Positions 24,326-40,343 of a stretch of DNA of 40,562 nucleotides are shown here, piece after piece; positions within the stretch are counted from its first letter, which is position 1; each line of letters begins with the position of its first letter. The notes below the pieces were generated by a model. That model did no database searches. It was not told where the DNA came from and saw only the letters and a list, made by a program, of their open reading frames with translations. Source of the DNA: a virus; IMG/VR virus record IMGVR_UViG_3300047553_000032, positions 1-40,562 of that record. One strand, 5' to 3'. A program made the position numbers and the translations under genes.

Positions 24326-24895
24326 CTATTTAGTAAATTGTATTTTAGTAATGATTGGCCCACTTGTGTAGATATCCCAATCAGTTGCAATCTCGATTGC
24401 TTTGCGCACTAATCTTTCAGCTTGTTGTGCATCTTGTACATCATCAATACCAAGCGCAGCCATAGCACCAAGAGCAATCGGGCTGCCAGAGCCAGCGTAG
24501 TAGATACCACGTGTATCACGGTCCCAAGAGTAATCCTCAAAGATAGGATAAACAACTCCACGAACGCTGATAAGAAACTGCGAATCATGTGATGCTGCAT
24601 CCCCATCTTCTTTCATATCATACCCTGCATCAATGAATACTTGACGCATCTGAGGTATAAACTTTTGTGTCATGAAGACATCAAGGTTCTCAGTTGCAGT
24701 AGGCTTAGGAGCTTTCCATCCAAACTGTAATATGTTTGAACCTCGTCCTGCACCAGCACCTGCAATGAGTGCACCGTTGTTTTCAACAATCTTATGCGTT
24801 GCCATCTCCATTGGACGGCCCTCTTCGTCAGAGCTGCGAGAATCGCATCCCATCACGACCCAGCCGTTGCCTTGAATAGCAGCTAATGTCGTCAT
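24326..24895 (-). CDS. Proteasome/HslV-like Ntn hydrolase, candidate prohead protease
   Basis: From the ATG at 24893-24895 (preceded by GAGGTGGGGACA) the protein has 189 residues and begins MTTLAAIQG. Removal of Met exposes a Thr, as in HslV and proteasome beta subunits. Counting that Thr as 1, Asp17 falls in MGCDSRSSD and Lys34 in ATHKIV, matching the T1-D17-K33 triad. A later GSGSPIALGAMAALG corresponds to the GSG-x-x-x-A helix of the family. The gene lies directly after the portal gene, where tailed phages normally encode the capsid maturation protease, so scaffold or portal processing is the likely job. Host-protein degradation is the alternative. A GTG at 24904 would add three residues and bury the Thr. 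Confidence 0.8.
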   Translation of the reverse strand: MTTLAAIQGNGWVVMGCDSRSSDEEGRPMEMATHKIVENNGALIAGAGAGRGSNILQFGWKAPKPTATENLDVFMTQKFIPQMRQVFIDAGYDMKEDGDAASHDSQFLISVRGVVYPIFEDYSWDRDTRGIYYAGSGSPIALGAMAALGIDDVQDAQQAERLVRKAIEIATDWDIYTSGPIITKIQFTK

Positions 24896-24909
24896 TGTCC
24901 CCACCTCTG

Positions 24910-30117: not shown

Positions 30118-30146
30118 TTGACACCTAGTCAAGCCTATGCTATACT
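30118..30146 (+). promoter_or_regulatory. Early promoter P5, near-consensus
   Basis: TTGACA (30118-30123), 17 bases, TATACT (30141-30146), with ATGC before the -10. It lies between the 90-residue gene and the 51-residue gene. A GCAA-loop hairpin GCCTA/TAGGC (30073-30086) lies just upstream. Confidence 0.85.
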
Positions 30147-30330: not shown

Positions 30331-30476
30331 CCAACTTGGATATGCTCGCTGTAATCATAGCCCTAACCGCCTCAATGACCCTAGTTATTACTACGGCTAT
30401 CGCTAACGCGAAACTGACTCGACGAATCGAGTACCTTAAACTGCAACTGCGCAAGCATGGACAGTTTGACAACTAA
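30327..30476 (+). CDS. 49-residue single-pass membrane protein
   Basis: From the ATG at 30327, coupled to the previous stop, the protein reads MTNLDMLAVIIALTASMTLV with a hydrophobic helix at about residues 5-26 and a basic amphipathic tail (RRIEYLKLQLRKHGQFDN). The frame is open further upstream, but the coupled ATG is the better start. It could be a small inner-membrane protein of the superinfection-exclusion type; this is a guess. Confidence 0.65.
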   Translation: MTNLDMLAVIIALTASMTLVITTAIANAKLTRRIEYLKLQLRKHGQFDN

Positions 30477-30494
30477 ATAAGATTATGCTATACT
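30466..30494 (+). promoter_or_regulatory. Promoter P6 for the amidoligase operon
   Basis: TTGACA (30466-30471), 17 bases, TATACT (30489-30494), with ATGC before the -10. It overlaps the end of the membrane-protein gene and lies 34 bases before the amidoligase start. It is one of the two best promoter matches in the window. Confidence 0.85.
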
Positions 30495-30528
30495 ACACCT
30501 ACAACATACAGGAAGGGGGTGAGTAGAT

Positions 30529-31842
30529 ATGGAAGATAAGATTGACCCTATCGTATGCACACTATGTGACCAAACGATAGACGAGGGTGATGAGCGACGA
30601 TTCAACGACGGCTCTATTGCTTGCGAGAATTGCACAGTATGGTGCGAGGAGTGCGAAGCACTAGTCAGCGTTGATGAGTCCGTCAGCGACGGCAGTAACT
30701 ACTTCTGCGATTCTTGCGGTAAGTATTGTGAGCGTTGCAATAACGCCTTCTCGGGTGACGATTACTTCGTCAGTTCCGAGTCATGGTGCGAGTATTGCTA
30801 CGAGAACTACAGTTTCTACTGCGAGCCATGTGGCGAGAGTTACAGCGACCGCGACGATTACCATAGTGTCGAGGGTGATACATGGTGCGACGATTGCACT
30901 AGCCGTAACGCTTGGTACTGCGAAGATTGTGACCAGTATAATCGTGACGGCAACGAGTGCGATTGTGGTAGTGACGGCAACACAGTTGCTGGTCGCAACT
31001 GCAACTGTCGTCGTACTATCCATGAGTATTCATGCAAGCCACCACTAGTATTCCATGGTGACTCTAAGCGCGGTGTCTATATGGGCTTCGAGTTAGAGAC
31101 ACAGATTCGTGGCGGTAGCCTCGACGAGGCTGCACAATTCACCAGCACAGCACTAGCAACCGATAGCGTAGGTATCATCAAGCATGATGCTAGCATTGGT
31201 CGTGACGGCTATGACGGCTTCGAGATTGTGACACAACCACATACTCACTTGCAATATCGTGAGCATAGTGCTACACTATGGGATACTATCAACATACTAC
31301 GCAACAAGTACGGCGCAAGGTCATGGGATACCAAGTCCTGTGGTCTACATATCCATGTCTCTCGCGCTGGCTTCTCAAGTGGTGCGCACATGCACCGCTT
31401 CATATCGTTCGTCTATTCCAACGCACCTCACATGATGAGGTTCGCTGGTCGCAAGACGGACTACGCTAGGTTCAATGATGTCTATACCTTCAACGAGTAT
31501 GACCAACCAGTTCGCTCGTTCAAGCACAAGGTAACTAGCCCACGCCGTAGCAATACGGAGAGATATTCTGCGGTCAATACGCAGAACATGGACACGCTAG
31601 AACTGCGGTTCTTTCGTGGCACTATGAACACCAGCACGATTCTATCAGCACTAGACCTAGTGCAAGCCATGGTAGAATACACTAGAGACCTACGACTTGA
31701 CGAGGTCAAGTTAGGTGCGCTAGACTGGACATGGTTCGTTGATTATGTACGAGATAACAACGGACTATATCCCGACCTATACTCTCGACTAGATAAACTA
31801 GCGAGTGTAAGTATAACCAACCCAACACTAGAGAACGCATGA
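30529..31842 (+). CDS. Amidoligase-family ATP-dependent ligase with N-terminal zinc array
   Basis: A 437-residue protein of two parts. Residues 1-160 carry repeated Cys pairs (CTLCDQ, CEECE, CDSCGKYCERC, CEYC, CEPCGE, CDDC, CEDCDQ), indicating several treble-clef zinc sites. Residues 180-430 match the Amidoligase_2 (glutamine synthetase-like) family: GVYMGFELET (metal/ATP-binding Glu), HDASIGRDGYDGFEIVTQP, SCGLHIHVSR and TLELRFFRGTMN. Such enzymes are predicted to join an amine to a carboxylate using ATP. A strong ribosome site (GGAAGGGGGTGAG) precedes the ATG. The next gene, a glutamine amidotransferase, follows by 8 bases and may supply ammonia. The substrate is unknown; peptidoglycan or a peptide tag are the main guesses. 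Confidence 0.85.
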   Translation: MEDKIDPIVCTLCDQTIDEGDERRFNDGSIACENCTVWCEECEALVSVDESVSDGSNYFCDSCGKYCERCNNAFSGDDYFVSSESWCEYCYENYSFYCEPCGESYSDRDDYHSVEGDTWCDDCTSRNAWYCEDCDQYNRDGNECDCGSDGNTVAGRNCNCRRTIHEYSCKPPLVFHGDSKRGVYMGFELETQIRGGSLDEAAQFTSTALATDSVGIIKHDASIGRDGYDGFEIVTQPHTHLQYREHSATLWDTINILRNKYGARSWDTKSCGLHIHVSRAGFSSGAHMHRFISFVYSNAPHMMRFAGRKTDYARFNDVYTFNEYDQPVRSFKHKVTSPRRSNTERYSAVNTQNMDTLELRFFRGTMNTSTILSALDLVQAMVEYTRDLRLDEVKLGALDWTWFVDYVRDNNGLYPDLYSRLDKLASVSITNPTLENA

Positions 31843-31850
31843 GGTGATGT

Positions 31851-32714
31851 ATGTGTATCCTTGTTGTGTGCGAGCCTAACAGCACGCCCACTAAGACAGA
31901 CCTACATAACGGCGCATGTAGTAACCCACATGGTTACGGCTTCGCCATTATCGCTGATGATAAGATTATATCAGAGCGTAGTATGTCTGCCAAAAAATCT
32001 ATCGCACGATTCTTAGAACTACGCAAGCAATACCCTAACGGGTATGCTATGTGGCACGCACGATACGCCACACATGGTGTCAAGAACGAAGCCAACTGCC
32101 ACCCGTTCCAAGTAGGTGGTAGTGACTTGACATACCTAGCACACAATGGTATCCTTGATGTTACCATCGAGAAGTCAGACAAGCGTAGCGACACTAGAGT
32201 ATTCGCAGAGGATACCTTGCCACTCATGGGTGGTGTGTCGGTACTTGACAACGATACAGTATGGACTATGGTTAGCAAGTGGGCTAGCGGTAGCAAGATA
32301 TGTATCCTTACGCTAGACCCTAGTGCCAAGCACCAGATATACCTAGTCAATGAGAACCTAGGTACATGGGATAACAATGGTATATGGTGGAGCAACCAGT
32401 CACACAAGCGTACCACTACCACCTATAAATCTCCCGCAGAGGTATGGGCTACACCCAGTAGAAGCATGGACAATGCCGAACAGTTAGCCTATGACTATGC
32501 GCTCAAACATTATTACCAAGATGAGGGTGAAGAAGTCCTTGACATCTGCCCTGCATGCGAGTCACTTGTAGATATGTACGAGAACCCGTACTACTGCACC
32601 ATGTGTGAGACATGCTTCGACTGTGATACCAGTATCATAGACTGCCTGTGCTACACACCCGATAGGAATTGGACAAGCCCTAAGAACTATGACTTGTTCG
32701 ATGCACAACTATAA
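31851..32714 (+). CDS. Class II glutamine amidotransferase-like protein with zinc-ribbon tail
   Basis: The 287-residue protein begins MCILVVCEP, so removal of Met exposes a nucleophilic Cys, the hallmark of GATase class II. Supporting residues are NPHGYGFA (25-32), MWHARYATHGVKNEANCHPF (68-86) and LAHNGIL (96-102), which provide the Arg, His-Gly, Asn and Asn-Gly positions of the glutamine pocket. The C-terminus holds DICPACESL, YYCTMCETCFDCD and CLC, a zinc-ribbon-like cluster. GAGGTG precedes the ATG closely. It lies just after the amidoligase gene, so glutamine-derived ammonia for an amidation is likely. It might instead hydrolyse an amide. Expression is probably from promoter P6. Confidence 0.85.
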   Translation: MCILVVCEPNSTPTKTDLHNGACSNPHGYGFAIIADDKIISERSMSAKKSIARFLELRKQYPNGYAMWHARYATHGVKNEANCHPFQVGGSDLTYLAHNGILDVTIEKSDKRSDTRVFAEDTLPLMGGVSVLDNDTVWTMVSKWASGSKICILTLDPSAKHQIYLVNENLGTWDNNGIWWSNQSHKRTTTTYKSPAEVWATPSRSMDNAEQLAYDYALKHYYQDEGEEVLDICPACESLVDMYENPYYCTMCETCFDCDTSIIDCLCYTPDRNWTSPKNYDLFDAQL

Positions 32715-32744: not shown

Positions 32745-33014
32745 ATGTCAGCAACAGCAATTCAGAATATCGCAGATGAAATCTCAGCACTAGCTAGCGA
32801 GGTAGCATACCTTGCTATGTCAGTAGATACATCATCAGACTATCCGTCCCGCGGGACAGTAGTCAAAGCACTACCAACACAGAATCGTTTCAAGGCTAAG
32901 TCATTGTGGGTGTCATTGGGCGACGGCACTTACAAACACCTGACTGGTAGCAAGGGTCTCATCACCACCCATGCTCGCCTTGACGGGTATGTCTCGACTG
33001 TATTCGAGGCATAA
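32745..33014 (+). CDS. 89-residue early protein
   Basis: The protein begins with a helix (MSATAIQNIADEISALASEV), then a beta-rich second half with ALPTQNRFKAKSLWVSLGDG and KGLITTHARLDGYVSTV. Its ribosome site is GAGAGG, spaced normally. No family is recognised. It follows the GATase by 30 bases and may belong to the same operon. Confidence 0.65.
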   Translation: MSATAIQNIADEISALASEVAYLAMSVDTSSDYPSRGTVVKALPTQNRFKAKSLWVSLGDGTYKHLTGSKGLITTHARLDGYVSTVFEA

Positions 33015-33074: not shown

Positions 33075-33215
33075 ATGAGCAAGCATGTAGTAATCTGTGA
33101 GGCAGAAGATTGCGAGGCAGAGAATGAGGACTGGGAAGATGACGGCTCAACATACTGGTTCACATGCTCAACATGTGGCTACGATAACGAGGTGGTGCAT
33201 TCACCATGGAAATGA
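33075..33215 (+). CDS. 46-residue acidic zinc-ribbon protein
   Basis: From ATG at 33075 (ribosome site GAGAGGATACAAC) the protein reads MSKHVVICEAEDCEAENEDW, then TYWFTCSTCGYDNEVVHSPW. The C-x4-C and C-x2-C pairs form a minimal zinc ribbon, and the rest is strongly acidic. Its end overlaps the WhiB start. It may be a nucleic-acid or transcription-factor binding adaptor; nothing more specific can be said. Confidence 0.7.
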   Translation: MSKHVVICEAEDCEAENEDWEDDGSTYWFTCSTCGYDNEVVHSPWK

Positions 33216-33550
33216 GTAACATGCAAGGTATATGTACGACACACCCTAACCCTGACCTATGGTTCGAGGACTCGGGTGACTTGTTCCAGAAGCGTTTAGG
33301 TAGCAGTAATCCTAACAAGAAGTTCGAGGAGCGACGAGCCAACATGCTTATCGCTATGGAATTATGTACCAAATGTCCGATTCGTACCAATTGTCTATCC
33401 GAGGGCATGAAGGAAGAGAACTTAGACTATGGTATATGGGGCGGGCTACTACCAGGAGAGCGTATCGCCATGGCTGACACAGCCAAGGCTTCTACTGATA
33501 GGAAGTACCGCATGATAGTTGCACAGAACATTAGGAGTCTAGTCAAATGA
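33206..33550 (+). CDS. WhiB-family Fe-S transcriptional regulator
   Basis: A 114-residue protein with the four Fe-S ligands of WhiB proteins: Cys10 in GICTTHPNPDLWF, then Cys54, Cys57 and Cys63 in MELCTKCPIRTNCLSE. The G-I/V-WGG turn (GIWGG, 76-80) follows, with a basic C-terminus for DNA contact. WhiB proteins bind the primary sigma factor of actinobacteria and occur almost only in that phylum and its phages. Here it may redirect host transcription or block host genes. It starts inside the previous gene's end, and its stop overlaps the next ATG. Confidence 0.9.
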   Translation: MEMSNMQGICTTHPNPDLWFEDSGDLFQKRLGSSNPNKKFEERRANMLIAMELCTKCPIRTNCLSEGMKEENLDYGIWGGLLPGERIAMADTAKASTDRKYRMIVAQNIRSLVK

Positions 33551-33936
33551 AATCAGTATTCTTCTTGCTATTCGTAACGGGTAGCATATTCTTGTTCAAT
33601 CCTACATCAGAAGCACCAACTAAAACATATACTACGCAGGCTTCTTGGAGTAAGGAAGACAGCAAGGCATATGCAAGGGACAAGTTATCTGAATGGCAAG
33701 AAGAACAATGGTCATGCCTTAGTAACTTGTGGGGCAAGGAGTCCGCATGGAATCCTAAAGCATACAATAACATCAGGGTAATGGGGAAGAACGCTGGTGG
33801 TATACCACAGTTACTAGGGCTTGACCCTGACACACCTGCACCACGACAGATTGAGCGAGGTCTTGCCTATATCTACTATAGGTACGACACGCCATGTAAT
33901 GCGTGGGCATTCTTCAAGAAACATAACTATCACTAA
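33547..33936 (+). CDS. Secreted lytic transglycosylase-like protein
   Basis: A 129-residue protein with a signal peptide (MKSVFFLLFVTGSIFLF). The mature domain has SCLSNLWGKESAWNPKAYN with a catalytic Glu65, then GIPQLLG, QIERGLAYIYYRYDTPCNAW and a C-terminal HNYH. This is the compact transglycosylase fold found in actinobacterial wall proteins; Cys57 and Cys117 probably form a disulphide. It lies in the early operon, away from the lysis block, so early wall remodelling is more likely than final lysis. The ATG overlaps the WhiB stop as ATGA. Confidence 0.85.
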   Translation: MKSVFFLLFVTGSIFLFNPTSEAPTKTYTTQASWSKEDSKAYARDKLSEWQEEQWSCLSNLWGKESAWNPKAYNNIRVMGKNAGGIPQLLGLDPDTPAPRQIERGLAYIYYRYDTPCNAWAFFKKHNYH

Positions 33937-39487: not shown

Positions 39488-40093
39488 TTATCCTATCTTA
39501 GTTGAGAACTGGCAATGTGCTGTCAGTCCACACTTGTATTGGCAATTGTTTGTGTTCGGCAAGAAGATACCTGCCTTACGTGCTTTGTCAAACCCCGCTA
39601 CTAAGTACTCCAGCTTCTCCTCTGTGTACTGTTCGAGACTGACCAACGGCGACACGCCATGCTGACGTGCCATGAAGTATGTTCCCCACTTGATATCTAT
39701 GCCAAAGGTTTTCATCAAACCAATCTTATAGAAACCAAGCTGTAGTGTATTGGAAGGAGTAGCCTGAGATGTCTTCAGGTCAACGATGACTAACTCACCA
39801 TTAACTTCAAAGACTCTATCAAGAATCATCTTGACTGGTACACCAGCAAACTCGGGTAACATTTCGAGTTCGATAGCAGGGACACCTTGCGGTGTCTTCC
39901 ATATCTTCCAATCGGTATTGGCTTTACGCCAGTCGATGTAGGCCTGTACCCAACGAGGACCTGACTCATGCCAGAAGGCTTCGTTCTCCTTGTTAGGGTT
40001 AGCTTTAGTTGCTCTGCCACCAACACGTGCATTGGTTAGGTCAGTGTCACCAAGCTCTTCGGCCCATGCTTTAGACCATAGTTCCTGTATCAT
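39488..40093 (-). CDS. RecB/Cas4-type nuclease, catalytic half
   Basis: From the ATG at 40091-40093, in ATGA overlap with the previous stop, the protein has 201 residues. VPVKMILDRVFEVNGELVIV and VDLKTSQ carry the catalytic Asp92, Asp105 and Lys107 of PD-(D/E)XK exonucleases. NNCQYKCGLTAHCQ (Cys184, 188, 194) supplies three of the four cysteines of an Fe-S cluster. The N-terminal motif with GxxxH and the fourth Cys is encoded by the upstream 62-residue gene in another frame. Together they would make a complete RecB-like nuclease for end processing or recombination. Confidence 0.8.
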   Translation of the reverse strand: MIQELWSKAWAEELGDTDLTNARVGGRATKANPNKENEAFWHESGPRWVQAYIDWRKANTDWKIWKTPQGVPAIELEMLPEFAGVPVKMILDRVFEVNGELVIVDLKTSQATPSNTLQLGFYKIGLMKTFGIDIKWGTYFMARQHGVSPLVSLEQYTEEKLEYLVAGFDKARKAGIFLPNTNNCQYKCGLTAHCQFSTKIG

Positions 40094-40278
40094 GCATTCT
40101 CCAAATCCCACAGTTCGGTTGCTCGGTGAAATGCCGAACCACCTACCGACCAAACCGAAGGTTCTTCTGGTACCATCAGTAATCTACCAAGGTAGTACTG
40201 ATAGCCACAGTCGACGTAGGTCGAGAATGCTGAGTATGAAACATGCTCGGGTAATTTATATTCTCCAAGTTGTATCAT
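40090..40278 (-). CDS. RecB/Cas4-type nuclease, N-terminal motif piece
   Basis: A 62-residue protein starting MIQLGEYKLPEHVSYSAFST. It contains YVDCGYQYYLGR (Cys24, likely Fe-S ligand) and VWSVGGSAFHRATELWDLEN, with the conserved GxxxH (His51). It ends with TGA overlapping the next ATG. The ATG at 40276-40278 lies only 9 bases downstream of a -10 element, so the mRNA would be almost leaderless. An upstream ATG in frame at 40338 lies before that promoter and is not favoured. Split gene or sequence error are both possible. Confidence 0.75.
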   Translation of the reverse strand: MIQLGEYKLPEHVSYSAFSTYVDCGYQYYLGRLLMVPEEPSVWSVGGSAFHRATELWDLENA

Positions 40279-40287
40279 CGTGGGTGT

Positions 40288-40293
40288 AGTATA
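40288..40293 (-). promoter_or_regulatory. Extended -10 promoter of the replication operon
   Basis: On the minus strand the sequence reads TGTGCTATACTACACC, with TATACT at 40288-40293 and a TGC extended -10 identical in style to the early promoters. No good -35 hexamer is seen. Transcription would start about 2-4 bases before the first ATG of the operon. Confidence 0.6.
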
Positions 40294-40343
40294 GCACACC
40301 TCAGGTAGCATGCAGGTTAGCAGCCTACCTACATCCATCAGTG

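Follow-up and report, generated by a model that had tools for sequence, protein, structure and literature searches.

A phage-type amidoligase with a LIM-like zinc-finger array, encoded next to a class II glutamine amidotransferase

Described amidoligase pairs and the locus

The pairing in phages of an amidoligase with a class II glutamine amidotransferase (GATase), together with the idea that the pair acts on peptidoglycan, goes back to Iyer 2009 (as cited in PMC10580990 and PMC11318856), and the pair in phage Marvin to Mageeney 2012 (as cited in PMC10580990). For phiEco32, LUZ24-like and RIO1-like phages, modification of host peptidoglycan against superinfection has been proposed (PMC11318856, PMC5498523, PMC11945000, PMC10580990), and the number of genes in the cassette differs between phages (PMC11945000). 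In the literature we found no tested activity or proven substrate for any member of such a pair, and the statement of an earlier note on this DNA that no substrate is proven was correct. The pair and the amidation or peptidoglycan idea are already published for phages; the pair described here adds a member.

We analyzed a virus record of 40,562 nucleotides (the window), in which the structural module (terminase, portal and major head protein) lies on the minus strand. Small genes clustered on the plus strand include the amidoligase-GATase pair as well as genes for WhiB and a transglycosylase-like protein. The features considered here are the following.

30118..30146, plus strand: upstream promoter-like site, TTGACA-17-TATACT with an extended -10 (pattern)
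30466..30494, plus strand: promoter-like site, TTGACA-17-TATACT, ending 34 bases ahead of the amidoligase ATG (pattern; similar place in relatives)
30510..30519, plus strand: ribosome-binding site AGGAAGGGGG of the amidoligase (sequence)
30529..31842, plus strand: Amidoligase_2 gene, 437 aa (open reading frame and PF12224 match)
30556..30966, plus strand: about five Cys4 zinc fingers in a row, spaced much as in LIM domains, aa 10-146 (Cys conservation, profile and fold matches)
31063..31812, plus strand: glutamine-synthetase-like catalytic domain, aa 179-428 (E188/E190, D220, E232, H274/H276, R279, R308, R345, E358/R360)
31841..31845, plus strand: Shine-Dalgarno-like GAGGT overlapping the amidoligase stop codon (sequence)
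31851..32714, plus strand: class II GATase gene, 287 aa (Cys2 nucleophile, R71, N99, G100, D114)
32547..32651, plus strand: C-terminal Cys8 cluster of the GATase, aa 233-267, probably zinc-binding (Cys conservation)
32745..33014, plus strand: protein of 89 aa that follows the GATase directly and belongs to no known family (conserved at 106 related loci)
33206..33550, plus strand: WhiB transcription factor, conserved neighbor (context gene)
33547..33936, plus strand: protein with a hydrophobic N-terminal segment and then a transglycosylase (SLT)-like domain, conserved neighbor (context gene)

Marvin gp105-gp106 and the corresponding genes of other Marvinvirus phages share with the window pair the two families, their order and their strand, and lie near the right genome end, at 31-33% and 36% identity for gp105-gp106. 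The Marvin GATase has the same C-terminal Cys pattern, and the N-terminus of its ligase is zinc-finger-like. In contrast to the window pair, Marvin has only one or two fingers, a longer C-terminal extension on the ligase and a 79-base gap; the annotation of its genes goes no further than glutamine amidotransferase domain proteins. Cassettes of the phiEco32/LUZ24/RIO1 type, as far as the papers citing Iyer 2009 and the RIO-1 work (cited in PMC5498523) describe them, likewise place an Amidoligase_2 gene and a class II GATase gene in the early region, but also carry ATP-grasp, COOH-NH2 ligase and GGCT genes, none of which was matched among the window early genes tested. If it is of the peptidoglycan cassette kind, the window pair would be a reduced form, and we do not place it as a member of the full cassette. 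A fuller version is seen in Rhizobium phage RHph_N3_13, in which amidoligase, ATP-grasp and GATase genes form one cassette (locus L158, 1649-5137). In the Methylophilales phages MEP401/402 (PMC10580990), amidoligase and GATase genes are adjacent in the same order as in the window, but the ligase is longer, with a different N-terminus and a single finger-like motif, and the GATase lacks the Cys8 cluster.

The coordinates of the two reading frames and the 8 bases that separate the amidoligase stop codon from the GATase start, both given in the earlier note, were confirmed in the sequence. Because the gap is this short and GAGGT lies across the first stop codon, translation of the two genes is likely to be coupled. 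The near-consensus promoter that the note had placed before the pair is real as a pattern and far above chance: TTGACA-17-TATACT occurs twice in the window (compared to 0.10 copies expected), and none of 100 shuffled sequences reached two copies. The extended -10 of the site nearer to the amidoligase is TGC. Relatives have a similar promoter 21-36 bases ahead of the start codon, and the strict pattern was present in 15 of 70 (compared to 1.65% at random positions). Judged from its position, divergent from the structural module and among small genes and the WhiB gene, the pair would be expressed early. The WhiB gene and the kinship with Marvin point to a probable actinobacterial host. Both genes are under purifying selection (dN/dS ~0.2 for the amidoligase, 0.08-0.10 for the GATase).

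The 89-aa protein has a strict conserved core, GTIVKA...RFKPKS-WVSLGDGTYKHLTG-KGL. We considered it as a substrate of the ligase, an idea that we set aside since the protein matches no family and nothing beyond its conservation speaks in favor. The transglycosylase-like protein sits in the early cluster, not in the lysis module. Elsewhere in the window, two overlapping minus-strand reading frames (39488-40338) match adjoining parts of one exonuclease family and are possibly a split or frameshifted gene, and an HslV-family-like peptidase beside the portal gene (24326-24904) is perhaps the prohead protease.

Active sites, predicted folds and zinc fingers

The amidoligase matched PF12224 (Amidoligase_2) with 29.2 bits, over the cut-off of 22, although this profile misses distant members of the family. 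Residues E188, E190, D220, E232, H274, R279, R308, R345, N350, E358 and R360 were invariant or nearly so across 38-40 aligned relatives and across a broader panel of 12-13 diverse homologues down to ~17-30% identity. AlphaFold models of the two proteins had a mean pLDDT of 83.6 and 83.2, and the catalytic domain of the ligase (aa 179-428) resembled glutamine synthetase (Z 12) and the YbdK relative 1tt4 (Z 12.6 over 217 residues). This domain fitted YbdK-type ligases and glutamine synthetases with an rmsd of 3.2-3.8 over 178-218 residues, and Dop and PafA were also among the Foldseek matches. In a profile alignment with glutamine synthetase, GLHIHVS fell on the GMHCHQS motif of that enzyme and LELR on its VEFR motif; the alignment alone was not significant. 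The amidoligase thus has the predicted fold and the motif order (ExE, GxHxHxS, ExR) in common with glutamine synthetase, YbdK, Dop and PafA, but its N-terminus is unlike theirs and the sequences are too distant for a significant profile match.

The GATase scored marginally with GATase_4 (23.9 bits, cut-off 23) and below the cut-off with GATase_6 (24.7 bits, cut-off 27). Residues C2, R71, N99, G100 and D114 were invariant among aligned relatives and in a diverse homologue set of the same size as for the ligase (12-13), and all 39 aligned proteins began with MC. A profile search matched GlmS (E 4e-8) and PurF, with no EgtC entry among the sequence matches, and the predicted structure tied between the GlmS glutaminase (Z 14.2) and EgtC (Z 14.0). 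The protein shares its fold and its Cys/Arg/Asn/Gly/Asp active site with EgtC and the glutaminase domain of GlmS and PurF, but it stands alone, lacks a synthase domain and carries the C-terminal Cys cluster, which probably binds zinc.

These results bear out the earlier assignment of the first protein to Amidoligase_2, by a search with the family profile and a glutamine-synthetase-like predicted fold, and of the second to the class II GATases with an N-terminal nucleophilic Cys, by a marginal GATase_4 score, a GlmS-like predicted fold and invariant residues. Structure prediction, which the note had recommended, matched each protein to a known ligase or glutaminase fold, and the motifs it had listed were all found (GVYMGFELET, CGLHIHVS and LELRFFRGT in the amidoligase; the MC start, HARYATHG and AHNG in the GATase). 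The note had named loss of catalytic residues as evidence against its reading; they are kept. From the kept residues and the predicted folds, both activities are probably intact.

The N-terminal part of the amidoligase was absent from the note, as was the Cys cluster of the GATase. The ligase part is made up of putative zinc-finger units with the form C-x2-C, ~16-18 residues, C-x2-C, the last unit being shorter, with cysteines at C10/13, 32/35, 39/42, 60/63, 67/70, 87/90, 98/101, 120/123 and 131/134, followed by C144/C146. There are nine CxxC motifs in the first 170 residues, compared to a mean of three in shuffles of the same composition. Most of the zinc-ligand cysteines are kept at 93% or more, and C32-C42 is absent as one unit in a clade with ligases of ~400 aa. 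A profile from the array alignment matched PINCH LIM domains (E 0.0026) and Foldseek matched LMO2/PINCH (E 0.002), while a Pfam search with the array gave no significant match to any family, LIM and other zinc families included. The array shares with these eukaryotic LIM domains the repeated C-x2-C / C-x2-C spacing, with weak profile and fold matches, but its ligands are all Cys, and 3-7 residues, not 2 as in LIM, lie between units. We did not find a LIM-like array described in the literature, in which Iyer 2009 and Mageeney 2012 were represented by the papers that cite them.

The other residues of the array have diverged strongly, with 25-33% identity in relatives whose catalytic domain keeps 41-75%. 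We considered positive selection on the array and dropped it, since dS is higher there too and dN/dS equals that of the catalytic domain (~0.2 each). The zinc-finger half of 30529-31842 showed ~2-4-fold higher synonymous divergence from close relatives than the catalytic half did, a hint of possible recombination within the gene. The array and the GATase Cys8 cluster suggest docking on a macromolecular target, whose identity they do not give.

Linkage and distribution of the pair

In a first set of loci, which includes repeated contigs, the GATase adjoined the amidoligase in the same order at all 119 loci that had both genes; five others were cut by contig ends. After duplicate proteins were removed and more distant relatives added, 137 of 148 distinct amidoligase reading frames had a GATase directly downstream in the same order (two counted by hand because stop-to-stop frames overlap), and 7 of the other 11 lay too near a contig end. 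Sampling began from relatives of the window pair, so this figure does not describe all Amidoligase_2 proteins. Real exceptions were few: a Clostridioides phage whose amidoligase had no adjacent GATase detected, one locus with the GATase 1.6 kb away (L240) and one with two amidoligases and the GATase upstream (L255). The functional linkage claimed in the note is thus supported, and homologues that are never adjacent and unrelated in phylogeny, which it had named as evidence against, were not what we found. The mirror-tree correlation of ligase and GATase (r 0.91) is expected for linked genes and was given no weight.

In a human gut phage scaffold (MT839723.1, locus L159, 2989-4988), the gene after a zinc-finger amidoligase encodes a class II GATase (GATase_6, 47 bits) that is far more distant and resembles the window GATase around the active site only, a possible replacement of the partner. 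A distant GATase in this position argues that glutaminase activity itself is needed, not a particular protein. The GATase of another locus (L161) matched no Pfam family.

Marvin-type mycobacteriophages and Methylophilales phages have the pair too, as do plasmids and conjugative elements of actinobacteria. A Labedaea conjugative element has the layout of zinc fingers, ligase and GATase close to genes for SSB and a TrwC relaxase, and the layout was also found in another genome from the phylum search; Marvin and mycobacterial plasmids show it with a smaller number of fingers. Only 2 of 396 actinobacterial genomes had a match, one of them the center genome of the search; the ligase and GATase thus look like genes of mobile elements, not of the host. 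In Labedaea rhizosphaerae (L126, 4890-16412), the pair lies between the SSB gene and the TrwC-type relaxase gene, and a gene upstream, which belongs to no known family, looks common to this locus and an Amycolatopsis locus (L127), suggesting a family of conjugative elements that carry the pair. A search with PADLOC gave no match to a known defense-system protein.

Proposed mechanism and candidate substrates

We consider it moderately likely that the pair makes a two-subunit, glutamine-dependent, amide-forming enzyme with a carboxylate target and zinc parts for docking, produced early in infection. Removal of Met would expose Cys2 of the GATase as the N-terminal nucleophile that splits glutamine; the freed ammonia would pass to the glutamine-synthetase-fold subunit, which would activate a carboxylate with ATP and convert it to an amide. 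The zinc array and the Cys cluster would dock the subunits to each other, to a macromolecular substrate, or both. A peptidoglycan precursor, a wall peptide or a host protein are candidate substrates. Of the two-enzyme amidation system put forward in the earlier note, the families, intact active sites and linkage held, while the amidation mechanism is still what we infer from them.

Two alternatives are substrate versions of this same amide-forming enzyme, and their probabilities overlap with it. The published proposal, that the pair modifies stem peptides of host peptidoglycan and so blocks superinfection by competing phages, fits the phiEco32, LUZ24-like and RIO1-like phages for which it was made and the conserved early neighbor with a transglycosylase-like domain behind a hydrophobic N-terminus. 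We hold it only tentatively, as the hosts of carriers differ greatly in their walls (Mycobacterium, Methylophilales, Acinetobacter, Rhizobium) and the ATP-grasp and GGCT members of the cassette were not found among the early genes. Moreover, zinc-finger arrays bind proteins or nucleic acids more often than wall peptides. Given the array and the kinship to Dop/PafA, a host protein recognized through the array, such as one that acts in transcription or wall synthesis, is about as likely a target as peptidoglycan. The strict Cys framework among strongly diverged residues, the LIM-like match, and the fold kinship of the ligase with the protein ligase/deamidase PafA/Dop all point this way; against it, equal dN/dS in the array and the catalytic domain gives no sign of positive selection.

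A different chemistry, in which a glutamyl (or other) group is added by the ligase and later removed by the Ntn enzyme with no transfer of ammonia, as by EgtA/EgtC in ergothioneine synthesis, is a serious rival because the GATase model agrees equally well with GlmS and with EgtC, a gamma-glutamyl hydrolase. The ligase fold is also common to glutamate-cysteine ligases and YbdK. We nevertheless think this sequence of reactions unlikely, since the GATase profile matches are to the ammonia donors GlmS and PurF. Modification of phage DNA bases or nucleotides is very improbable: GATase II domains do serve some DNA modification systems (Gat-QueC), but no deazaguanine or thymidine hypermodification gene, and no other supporting gene, was found among the window genes tested. 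Returning to the amide-forming enzyme, a bolder version, to which we give little credence, is a system by which viruses and conjugative elements would amidate proteins under zinc-finger guidance: a common glutaminase-ligase engine would be directed by an exchangeable LIM-like array that picks, soon after DNA entry, the host proteins whose carboxylates are to be amidated.

The pair is widespread, with at least 583 confirmed ligase relatives among the IMG/VR matches listed, and its conserved zinc-finger part offers a handle for finding the target and thereby for testing the long-standing proposal of peptidoglycan modification and superinfection.
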